DNA of 64,000 bases from Streptomyces scabiei 87.22 (GTDB taxonomy: Bacteria; Actinomycetota; Actinomycetes; Streptomycetales; Streptomycetaceae), in contig NC_013929.1 of assembly GCF_000091305.1 (NCBI RefSeq), forward strand, positions 2,790,001 through 2,854,000, in the 5' to 3' direction. Positions within the stretch are counted from its first letter, which is position 1, and each line of letters starts with the position of its first letter. Shown in pieces: positions 29,239 to 31,745 of the stretch. A program made the position numbers and the translations under genes. The notes under the pieces are model-generated. The model was not told the DNA's origin, did not search any database, and saw only the letters and a list, made by a program, of their open reading frames with translations.

Positions 29239-30930
29239 GTGGACCCGGTGATCATCGTCGGAGCGGGGCCCGTGGGGCTCACGCTCGCCCTTGCGCTGGC
29301 ACGGCAGCAGGTGCCGTCCGTGGTCCTCGACGAGGGACCGGGGAAGGACGAGCAGCGGCTCGCCCGGACGGTGGTGCTGAACGAGGACACGGCCGCACTG
29401 CTGGAACGATTGTCCGGAGTCCCGCTCTCCCGGGCCGGCTGCCGTTGGGCCGGATGGCGGTCGATGCGGCGCAAGCAGGTGATGCGTCAGGTCCGGTTCG
29501 GGGACGGCGGCCTCGACGAGCAGGACACCCCGCCCCGGGAGGGCCCGACAGCGGGGCGCGGCGGCCCGGAGGAGGTCGTCGAGGGTTCCGCGGGCCTCCC
29601 TCCGCTCCACATCGCCCAGCACGTCCTGACCGCCGCTCTGCGCGAGGCCATCATCGGCGAACCGCTCGTCAAGGTCGCCGTGGAGAGCCGTCTCGACGCG
29701 ATCGAGCAGGAGAAGTCCGGCGTCACGGCCCACACACGCGGGCCCAAGAGCACCTGGTGGCGCGGCAGTTACCTGGTGGGCTGCGACGGCCCGCGCTCGA
29801 CGGTCCGCAAGCTCCAGGACATCCGCTTCCCCGGCCGCACCGCGGTGGAGCGGCACGCGGTCGCCGCACTGCGCGCCGAACTTCCCTGGCCCGGCGAGGC
29901 GTTGCTGCACCGCATGCCGCCGTGGCGCACGTCGGGCCCCTCCGGCGGCGAGATCACCGCCCGGCCGCTCGACGGAGGGGTCTGGCGGCTGGACTGGCTC
30001 CTGCCTCCGGGCAAGGACCTCGTGACGCCCGAGCTGCTCGTGGCCCGCGTCCGGGAGACCCTGGCCGGCTGGACGGGCGGCTCCACCCCGCCGTACGACC
30101 TGCTGGACACCGGCGTCCACACGGTGCACCACCGGCTCGCCCGGCGGTGGCGGGTCGGCCGGGTCTTCCTGGCCGGGGACGCCGCGCACCTGCTCGGGGC
30201 GCTCGGCACCCAGGGTCTCGACGAGGGCCTGCGGGACGCCGACAACCTCGCCTGGAAACTCGCTCTGGCCTGGCACCACGGCCCGCACGAGGCACTGCTG
30301 GACAGCTACCAGGCGGAGCGGCGCGCGGTCGTCGCCACCCGTCTGCGCGCCGCCGACCAGGTACTTCCCCTGCTGCGCGGCGCCAAGGGGCTGCGCTCGT
30401 ACGTCCCCGGCTCCTCCCGGGGTCATGACGCGCTGCTCTCCGACGGGCATCTGGGGCGCGGAGCGCTGGGTGCGCCGGGGGCGTACACCGACTCCCCGCT
30501 CATGCCTGCGCACTCCGACGCGGAGACCCCGATCGACACCTTGCCGGGCACTCAGGTCGTGGACGTGGAGGTGACCGCGGAGGACGGCTCCTTCGTACCG
30601 CTGCGGGACCGGCTCGGGCGCGGGGCGCTGCTGGTGGTGCTGATCGCGCCGGGTACCGGTGTGTGGGCGCGCAAGCACTGGATGAGCGCCGGGATCATGC
30701 CGCGCCTGGCCGCCGCCGTCTCCGCCCTGCCGCGTCCGGCCGAGCTGCTGGTCGCCGAGTCCTATCCGGGTGCGGGCGCCCACACCGTCCTCCTCGTCCG
30801 GCCCGACGGATACCTCGTCACAGCTTTGAGCGGTGTGCGCCCGGCCGACCTGTACACGGCGGCAGCGGCGACGCTGGGCGGGGCGGAACAGCGGTCCGAG
30901 GCGACCGGGGCGGCTTCGAGCACCCGGTGA
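29239..30930 (+). CDS. FAD-dependent monooxygenase (PheA/TfdB type)
   Basis: Group A flavoprotein hydroxylase of 563 residues. The Rossmann motif VIIVGAGPVGLTLALALA opens the protein, the DG motif is in LVGCDGPRSTVRKLQ, and the GD motif is FLAGDAAHLLGALGTQGLDE, followed by NLAWKLALA. A thioredoxin-like C-terminal domain probably spans the last ~150 residues. The GTG at 29239 is chosen because the dinucleotide fold begins right after it; the frame is open upstream to 29068 but that part reads like non-coding sequence. It stands between the glu operon and cysteine dioxygenase, with terminators on both sides. The substrate is unknown. Confidence 0.85.
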   Translation: MDPVIIVGAGPVGLTLALALARQQVPSVVLDEGPGKDEQRLARTVVLNEDTAALLERLSGVPLSRAGCRWAGWRSMRRKQVMRQVRFGDGGLDEQDTPPREGPTAGRGGPEEVVEGSAGLPPLHIAQHVLTAALREAIIGEPLVKVAVESRLDAIEQEKSGVTAHTRGPKSTWWRGSYLVGCDGPRSTVRKLQDIRFPGRTAVERHAVAALRAELPWPGEALLHRMPPWRTSGPSGGEITARPLDGGVWRLDWLLPPGKDLVTPELLVARVRETLAGWTGGSTPPYDLLDTGVHTVHHRLARRWRVGRVFLAGDAAHLLGALGTQGLDEGLRDADNLAWKLALAWHHGPHEALLDSYQAERRAVVATRLRAADQVLPLLRGAKGLRSYVPGSSRGHDALLSDGHLGRGALGAPGAYTDSPLMPAHSDAETPIDTLPGTQVVDVEVTAEDGSFVPLRDRLGRGALLVVLIAPGTGVWARKHWMSAGIMPRLAAAVSALPRPAELLVAESYPGAGAHTVLLVRPDGYLVTALSGVRPADLYTAAAATLGGAEQRSEATGAASSTR

Positions 30931-30951
30931 CACCCCCGCGGCCGTCGGGGC

Positions 30952-30983
30952 GACCGTCACTGTGTGTCCACATAGTGACGGTC
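30952..30983 (+). terminator. terminator of the monooxygenase gene
   Basis: GACCGTCACTGTGTG (30952-30966) pairs with CACATAGTGACGGTC (30969-30983) with one mismatch and a very short apical loop. It ends three bases before the -35 box of the leader-peptide promoter, insulating it from read-through. Confidence 0.7.
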
Positions 30984-30985
30984 GG

Positions 30986-31014
30986 TTGACCGGTCCGCGC
31001 CGTCATGGTCTACT
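30986..31014 (+). promoter_or_regulatory. promoter giving a leaderless Cys leader-peptide mRNA
   Basis: TTGACC (30986-30991), a 17-base spacer and TCTACT (31009-31014) fit a HrdB promoter. Seven bases separate the -10 box from the GTG at 31022, so transcription should begin at or next to that start codon. Confidence 0.7.
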
Positions 31015-31021
31015 CCGGACC

Positions 31022-31108
31022 GTGACCGACACCTCGACGCGCCTGTGGCGGAGGGTCCATATGGACCTCGTCCGCTACGCGGGCTGCGTGTGTCGTCCGT
31101 CCTGCTGA
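31022..31108 (+). CDS. Cys-rich leader peptide upstream of cysteine dioxygenase
   Basis: A 28-codon ORF starting GTG ACC GAC and ending TGA at 31106-31108. The C terminus is YAGCVCRPSC, with three Cys codons among the last seven. Small peptides with this kind of ending before sulphur genes are known as putative leader peptides in Streptomyces, and polycysteine leaderless ORFs act as cysteine-responsive attenuators in mycobacteria. The promoter position makes a leaderless mRNA likely. An internal ATG could give a 15-residue peptide with the same end. It probably senses Cys-tRNA charge and sets expression of the downstream gene; this is inference. Confidence 0.75.
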   Translation: MTDTSTRLWRRVHMDLVRYAGCVCRPSC

Positions 31109-31130
31109 ACTCGCATCCCTCGGCATCCTT

Positions 31131-31178
31131 TCGCCCTCCGCGCGCGCCTTCCGTGTGCCGCCGCGCGCTTCGGGGCGA
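31131..31178 (+). promoter_or_regulatory. candidate attenuator hairpin before cysteine dioxygenase
   Basis: TCGCCC (31131-31136) can pair with GGGCGA (31173-31178), and inside it GCGCGCG (31140-31146) with CGCGCGC (31162-31168). The hairpin lies between the leader stop and the AGGA ribosome site of the next gene (31188-31191), where a ribosome stalled on the leader could alter folding. No U-run follows, so control of translation is more likely than termination. Confidence 0.4.
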
Positions 31179-31199
31179 ACGCACTTCAGGACGGTACCC

Positions 31200-31745
31200 G
31201 TGTCTGTGTCTCCCGTTGTTCCCCCCACCCCCGCCCCCGTCCCGCCCCTCTCCGCCCCCACGCAGGCCGAACTGCTCGACTTCGCGCGCCGTACGGCCGC
31301 CGACGCGGAACTGATCGCCTCGCTCCCGCTCGACCCCGAGGGCCGCACGTGGGTGCGGCTCGAAGGCCCCGGTGGCAGCGAGGCCTGGCTCATCGGCTGG
31401 CCGCCCGGCACCGGCACCGGCTGGCACGACCACGCCGACTCGGTCGGCGCCTTCGTGACCGCCGCGGGCGCACTCAAGGAGTACTCACTCGCCGCCCGGC
31501 TGCCCACCGACGGCTGGAAGACCCTCGAACTCACCGAAGGCGTCGACCGTGAACGTCGGTTGTCCGCCGGCAAGGGCCGCTCCTTCGGGCGCCACCATAT
31601 CCACGAGGTGCTCAACGAGTCCACCGAGGAGCACGCGGTGTCGGTCCACGCCTACTACCCGCCCCTCCCGCGCATCCGCCGCTACAGCCGCACAGGACAG
31701 GTGCTGCGTCTGGAGCACGTGGAGCGTCCGACCGACTGGCAGTGA
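31200..31745 (+). CDS. cysteine dioxygenase (cupin)
   Basis: Mononuclear iron enzyme of 181 residues that oxidises cysteine to cysteine sulphinate, the first step in cysteine breakdown. The three iron ligands are visible: two His in GWHDHADSVGAF and a third in RHHIHEVLNES, within a cupin fold; SVHAYYPPLPRIRRY is a typical ending. The first ~20 residues are Pro/Val-rich. The GTG at 31200 is chosen because CAGGA is 9-13 bases upstream. A Cys-rich leader peptide 91 bp upstream suggests that its expression tracks cysteine supply. It converges on recX. Confidence 0.9.
   Translation: MSVSPVVPPTPAPVPPLSAPTQAELLDFARRTAADAELIASLPLDPEGRTWVRLEGPGGSEAWLIGWPPGTGTGWHDHADSVGAFVTAAGALKEYSLAARLPTDGWKTLELTEGVDRERRLSAGKGRSFGRHHIHEVLNESTEEHAVSVHAYYPPLPRIRRYSRTGQVLRLEHVERPTDWQ

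Follow-up and report, generated by a model that had tools for sequence, protein, structure and literature searches.

A cysteine dioxygenase (CDO) gene of Streptomyces scabiei 87.22, here called CDO1, lies downstream of a short open reading frame that ends in a cluster of cysteine codons, and the question raised by this locus is whether ribosomes on that reading frame govern how much of the enzyme is made, and in which direction. We analysed it within a window of 64,000 nucleotides (the whole stretch of DNA under study), which sits in a 10.1-Mb chromosome. The answer may help to explain the joint rise of a cysteine-oxidising enzyme and cysteine biosynthesis genes under peroxide and, if our reading is true, Streptomyces cysteine oxidation would be coupled through ribosome position to cysteine supply. 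In that reading, a leaderless leader peptide forms a translational gate on CDO1 that is opened by stalling at its Cys codons; we give this whole chain a probability of roughly one half.

A Cys-ended leader upstream of a cysteine dioxygenase gene

The product of CDO1 matches PF05995 with 166.6 bits against a gathering score of 23, and the cysteine dioxygenases of the PDB with a best E of 6.5e-14. Arg49, His76, His78, His135, Ser148, His150 and Tyr152 are invariant in 7 aligned sequences (that of the window and 6 relatives), and we take these 3-His, Arg and Ser-His-Tyr residues to have catalytic roles. By family score and kept residues, it would be a cysteine dioxygenase of type I with cysteine as its predicted substrate; a search for an alternative substrate turned up nothing useful. 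A crude motif for recX downstream of CDO hit in 18 of 77 cases, an uninformative outcome from which we draw nothing.

The upstream reading frame is read as VTDTSTRLWRRVHMDLVRYAGCVCRPSC, with 28 codons followed by TGA, Cys at codons 22, 24 and 28, and GCVCRPSC as the C-terminus, so that three Cys codons fall within seven residues as the sequence-only reading had described. Among the best 80 of 470 confirmed CDO loci (78 from Streptomyces, 1 from Kitasatospora aureofaciens and 1 from "Actinobacteria bacterium OV320"), the same leader peptide stands 5' of CDO in 79. At the sole exception, L035, the C-terminal part MDLARYAGCVCRPSC is kept and the promoter and N-terminus are replaced by other DNA, presumably an IS insertion. 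The 79 loci with the leader and the window itself make up the 80 rows used below, in which Cys22 is retained as TGC in 78, Cys24 as TGT in all 80 and Cys28 in 73. A fourth Cys codon occurs in 37 of the 80 rows, always as codon 5, where the window has Ser. Leader conservation across these alignments exceeds chance; many codons are near-invariant at synonymous positions too, and constraint on the peptide and on the RNA is therefore inseparable within this set. As a possible internal start, ATG14 follows a GGAGG and is ATG in 77/80 rows, yet we preferred the upstream start because family leaders without this ATG still have the R and H that precede it.

Table 1. Features of the CDO1 locus in window coordinates, and the second CDO gene of the genome
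Feature	Position	Strand	Remarks
Near-palindrome GTCACTGTGTGTCCACATAGTGAC	30956..30979	none	immediately 5' of -35 box; possible transcription-factor site
-35 box TTGACC	30986..30991	+	identical placement in 69/80 rows
-10 box TCTACT	31009..31014	+	17-base spacer after -35 box; 7 bases to GTG
Leader peptide ORF MTDTSTRLWRRVHMDLVRYAGCVCRPSC	31022..31108	+	inferred leaderless GTG start; NF042934 match; 79/80 CDO loci
Anti-Shine-Dalgarno CCGTCCTG	31097..31104	+	within leader codons 26-28
G+C-rich hairpin	31130..31179	+	between leader stop and CDO ribosome site
CDO Shine-Dalgarno region CAGGACGG	31187..31194	+	pairs with leader 3' end in predicted minimum free energy (MFE) fold
Cysteine dioxygenase gene CDO1, 181 aa	31200..31745	+	GTG start; PF05995 E 4.8e-49
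CDO2, own genome (L267)	G000:C1:6122347-6122826	-	fetched set L253-L282

The promoter with 17-base spacing that had been noted earlier is likewise present, and the comparison adds a fixed distance to the leader start. A T[GC]TA[CA]T box lies exactly 7 bases 5' of the GTG or ATG in 79/80 rows (-10 variants: TGTACT 61, TCTACT 15, TGTAAT 3, other 1; start codons: GTG 68, ATG 12), and the distance is kept even in the 6/80 rows with two extra N-terminal codons. A leaderless start would require such constancy, and from the conserved spacing we infer that transcription initiates on the leader GTG itself. A generic sigma-70 scan called 0 promoters at this site because the -10 box has no A at position 2, which the scan demands. 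The idea of a Cys-ended, probably leaderless leader placed to control CDO is supported by its presence at 79 of the best 80 loci, the fixed spacing and the retained Cys codons. The near-palindrome 5' of the -35 box is weakly conserved: of its 12 palindromic pairs, 9 or more are kept in 23/80 rows versus 3/80 control stretches (means 6.4 versus 6.1), and a scan of the own genome for a regulon, allowing up to 3 mismatches, gave no second site.

Leader families before sulfur genes and cysteine dioxygenase genes

Cysteine attenuation by leaderless short ORFs has been described in M. smegmatis (Canestrari et al. 2020, as relayed in PMC9031893, PMC9094748, PMC4633059 and PMC13236596; also cited in PMC7790235). 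The leader of CDO1 resembles the mycobacterial poly-Cys short ORFs Ms5788A and Ms4527A, as these sources present them, in being a short ORF, here probably leaderless, that has a cluster of Cys codons and a sulfur gene downstream, a comparison that covers layout, target and family score; the clustering of Cys codons near the ORF end is that of cysteine-responsive leaderless attenuators. It differs from them in that its target is a cysteine-oxidising enzyme, in that its last codons hold a direct anti-Shine-Dalgarno, and in that it scores only 20.4 bits against NF042933 (Ms5788A family Cys-rich leader peptide), below the curated cut-off of 45. A match over the cut-off was found instead to NCBIfam NF042934 (cis_reg_atten, "putative leader peptide"), a model of a 19-residue motif that aligns to residues 7-24 with 37.3 bits (curated cut-off 27), and this kind of object is therefore already on record. 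The relation to the mycobacterial type proposed from the sequence alone is supported by the NF042934 match, with the score for the Ms5788A family staying below its cut-off.

NF042934 matches occur in 41/41 genomes sampled from the organism's own family. In its own genome (NF042934 loci L001, L003-L006 and L008-L010), leaders over the cut-off stand 5' of CysO-CysM, of a sulfite reductase, of an FMN reductase and of a rhodanese gene; weaker matches, below the cut-off, lie 5' of genes for a ROK protein, a flavin reductase, a 2OG-Fe(II) oxygenase and a periplasmic binding protein. The CDO leader shares a family with leaders of cysteine biosynthesis genes. An R-x-H-x-D-L-x-R segment, ahead of the Cys codons in the CDO leader, is largely kept in these own-genome leaders before different genes and with different codons, so that peptide and RNA constraint become separable at the level of the family. 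A plain reading in terms of three Cys codons may therefore be incomplete, since codon starvation alone would not require R-x-H-x-D-L to recur.

To see how far Cys leaders recur before CDO genes, we surveyed 148 genomes class-wide and obtained CDO matches at E <= 1e-10 in 56 of them. Briefly, 59 upstream regions were taken with the own locus left out and 58 were scanned, L118 being too short, alongside 112 control regions, for which we used the other strand of these upstream regions and stretches inside or after the gene. By fixed criteria, a Cys leader was called in 18/58 upstream regions versus 2/112 controls, and the 18 may be an underestimate because some CDO matches begin inside the gene (e.g., L112). 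Eight of the positives belong to CDO1 of the own genus and 3 to CDO2, and the other 7 are L113, L114, L115, L119, L123, L226 and L236. Judged from such predicted ORFs, Cys leaders precede CDO genes recurrently.

CDO2, the second CDO of the genus (58/61 genomes), would fit SCO3035 by synteny alone, and it adjoins a gene that we take to be WhiB-like. A poly-Cys ORF lies upstream of CDO2 in 30/30 fetched loci, with TTGACA 36 or 37 bases before the ATG. These leaders, which are unrelated to that of CDO1, are either MLAN...- or MPAT...-like, and MLANLALTSTRSAGSLGAARCSCRCCCPSC is the one in the own genome; the one variant that we compared with NCBIfam had no match. If our reading is true, two unrelated leader kinds before two CDO paralogs should respond to the same signal.

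Two further arrangements were seen in the survey. L226 and L236, from one genus, have a near-identical promoter before CDO that is followed by a predicted five-residue MRCCC leader in the former and by MQASALVLVMRRHIDLKRTCTAICR in the latter (36.7 bits against NF042936, below its cut-off of 45), an apparent natural swap of leader types. L114 may have tandem leaders: after a poly-Cys ORF with an MRCRCCA end comes a second ORF, containing YRRIHLDLLLTQGSVCPRMCC, which extends toward the CDO start.

A leader peptide before a cysteine dioxygenase gene is the subject of nothing relevant in the open-access literature that we searched, and Table 4 of an S. lividans re-annotation (PMC8079986) has eight leader peptides, none of them before a CDO gene. 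The same table contains the metNIQ leader metL, MSTTSDRTPATEATTTPGARCMCRRMCAF, whose end carries three closely spaced Cys and which may be cysteine- rather than methionine-responsive. The device at CDO1 is of a known kind, and the controlled gene and the wiring look new.

Predicted pairing of the leader end with the CDO ribosome site

Between the stop of the leader and the start of CDO1 lie 91 bases that contain the hairpin which the sequence-only reading had placed before the ribosome site. It is two-tiered, with 31130-31137 facing 31172-31179 and 31140-31146 facing 31162-31168. Among the relatives, 86/87 have a TCGC/GCGA closing stem, which is paired in the MFE fold of 81/87; the hairpin segment has a mean z-score of -1.63 across these relatives, with values below -2 in 27/87. 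In the window, the fold from leader to CDO exceeds its shuffles in stability by a moderate margin only (z -1.71, and -0.29 when the 3' part is taken alone). No riboswitch or T-box of Rfam 15 was found in 30700-31400 up to E 1, or window-wide at gathering scores. We also considered a transcription attenuator with an intrinsic terminator (hairpin and T run) and rejected it on finding 0 terminator-like sites in 30900-31260.

The last leader codons contain CCGTCCTG, the exact complement of the CDO ribosome site CAGGACGG. With G-U pairs allowed, this anti-Shine-Dalgarno (anti-SD) forms all 8 pairs in 71/88 loci and 7 or more in 80/88, and no locus falls below 6 (one or two pairs are lost in 17/88), and when folded from leader codon 21 onward, the MFE structure pairs the CDO SD with the leader end in 85/88 loci. 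Because a MAFFT alignment yielded no useful consensus with RNAalifold, probably owing to register shifts of the hairpin, we folded each sequence separately. We then aligned the helices in 53 of 61 non-redundant sequences, leaving out eight with long or extra hairpins. For the anti-SD helix together with a TTCGC/GCGAA stem, 96.8% of cells were paired, compared with 31-45% when the two sides were slid. No pair of the anti-SD helix changed on both sides in these 53 rows, the one double-sided change in the two helices lying outside it, and the covariation score was equalled or exceeded by 44/500 letter shuffles. As far as these alignments tell, the anti-SD helix is conserved, without covariation. 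Under synonymous recoding of the leader (16 loci, 40 recodings each), the native site was more closed than the recoded mean in 15/16, and the tail averaged 0.18. This signal is modest: ordinary codon use for such a peptide is fairly likely to produce this anti-SD.

We modelled ribosome masking by blocking the RNA under a 31-base footprint and computing the opening cost of the CDO SD. This cost had a mean of 7.8 kcal/mol without a ribosome and dropped by a mean of 3.1 kcal/mol with the first Cys codon in the A-site, and 4.4 with the second (80 rows). The drop reached 5.2 both with the third Cys codon there (71 rows) and with the ribosome at the leader stop codon (80 rows). For leaders before CysO (20), sulfite reductase (10), sulfurtransferase (9) and CDO2 (30), the mean change was at most 0.5 in size, with gene starts and ribosome sites of the first three groups assigned by motif. 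Unlike the CDO1 leader, the NF042934 leaders before CysO, sulfite reductase and sulfurtransferase thus lack a gate from leader to SD in the folding model.

We varied the leading edge of the footprint (16, 12 or 9 bases) and counted a drop of more than 1 kcal/mol as an effect. A ribosome at Cys22 then had an effect in 17/80 rows with the 12-base edge and 18/80 with the 9-base edge, and one at Cys24 in 61/80 and 16/80, respectively. At codon 28, the corresponding counts were 76/80 and 77/80, and at the stop codon 72/80 and 73/80. Under all three footprints, these two positions had an effect in 72-77 of the 80 rows. Codon 12, as a control, gave 14/80 with the longest, 11/80 with the middle and 37/80 with the shortest footprint. 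In these folding simulations, ribosome position changes access to CDO, and the leader end is the position from which a ribosome opens it most consistently. We consider it likely that the leader end gates CDO directly through the anti-SD.

In the general scheme of translation attenuators, as set out in PMC13236596, a segment of an upstream ORF masks the Shine-Dalgarno and a ribosome on that ORF unmasks it. The CDO1 leader is alike in that a leader segment is predicted to pair downstream and hide the SD until a ribosome on the upstream ORF unmasks it; it differs in standing before a cysteine dioxygenase gene and in having no known drug or metabolite ligand. We file it as an NF042934 member that would act like a Cys-responsive translational attenuator, with the direct anti-SD gate as a variant feature.

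Sign of control and competing explanations

That the leader controls CDO output in some manner seems to us very probable. In the proposed mechanism, transcription would start on the GTG and ribosomes would load without a Shine-Dalgarno, while the transcript folds so that, by computation, the last leader codons close the CDO ribosome site. Scarce charged Cys-tRNA would slow ribosomes at Cys codons 22, 24 and 28, longer occupancy at the leader end would keep the site open as in the folding model, and CDO would rise when cysteine is short or oxidised, alongside biosynthesis genes that bear leaders of the same family. The leader would probably tune the amount of enzyme to cysteine supply. Anatomy alone does not fix the sign of this control, which in the model is set by the position of the halted ribosome and the reach of its masking.

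Expression data from S. coelicolor speak to the sign, if the leader is present at SCO5772 there, as we assume from its presence in relatives. SCO5772 is named a putative cysteine dioxygenase in PMC3087709, a nitrogen-regulator study that tabulates it among the affected genes, and is entered merely as a hypothetical protein in an H2O2 transcriptome (PMC4991794). Table 1 of the latter, which gives RNA-seq transcript levels under H2O2, a condition different from cysteine starvation, has SCO5772 up 8.00-fold; the same data set has cysH at 17.03, cysI at 9.32, cysA at 8.34, cysM at 8.46 and SCO3035 at 6.54. The rise of SCO5772 with cysteine biosynthesis genes favours the conventional sign, by which low cysteine gives more CDO, and is no proof of it; a cysteine increase following induction could also raise CDO. 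No up-regulated gene is reported in that account for a mutant without HbpS-SenS-SenR, a loss of induction that points to a protein regulator as well, and these biosynthesis genes are under further regulators, too (PMC4340878). On balance, we lean slightly toward the conventional sign.

The opposite sign, which the sequence-only reading put forward as a possibility (high cysteine raising CDO), uses the same gate: a starvation stall at Cys22, short of the anti-SD, would keep CDO closed, and with ample cysteine the leader would be finished and the site opened at codon 28 and the stop. This would suit a catabolic enzyme, it agrees with the rarity of opening from Cys22 under the 12- and 9-base edges next to its consistency at codon 28 and the stop, and the extra Cys at codon 5 lies far 5' of the anti-SD. 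Against it stand the rise of SCO5772 with the biosynthesis genes under H2O2 (PMC4991794), by which this part of the earlier proposal is not supported, and the opening of the site by stalls at Cys28 itself and, with the two longer footprints, at Cys24; we hold the reversed sign to be unlikely. Similarly doubtful is its extension to the whole family, in which one kind of leader would set cysteine making and oxidising with opposite signs by wiring alone: a stall would mean ON for the biosynthetic genes, and CDO would be an overflow valve that opens at plentiful cysteine because the anti-SD lies past the first conserved Cys codon and the leader must be finished.

Somewhat less probable still is an arrest peptide, in which RxHxDL-R in the exit tunnel pauses the ribosome at the Cys codons on cysteine or a related metabolite, so that the nascent chain, and not Cys-tRNA charging alone, is the sensor. 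The recurrence of R, H and DL among own-genome leaders with differing codons and downstream genes would fit such a peptide, as would the ubiquity of NF042934 in the sampled family; however, poly-Cys leaders without this segment (CDO2, L113 and L115) and the predicted five-residue leader of L226 hold the same place before CDO. Finally, the leader could be a bystander of little effect, with CDO set by an upstream operator, the promoter and protein regulators, as the near-palindrome and the loss of H2O2 induction without HbpS-SenS-SenR (PMC4991794) might suggest, but we think this very improbable given a peptide kept at 79/80 loci, a palindrome clear in only 23/80 rows and the recurrence of unrelated Cys leaders before other CDO genes.
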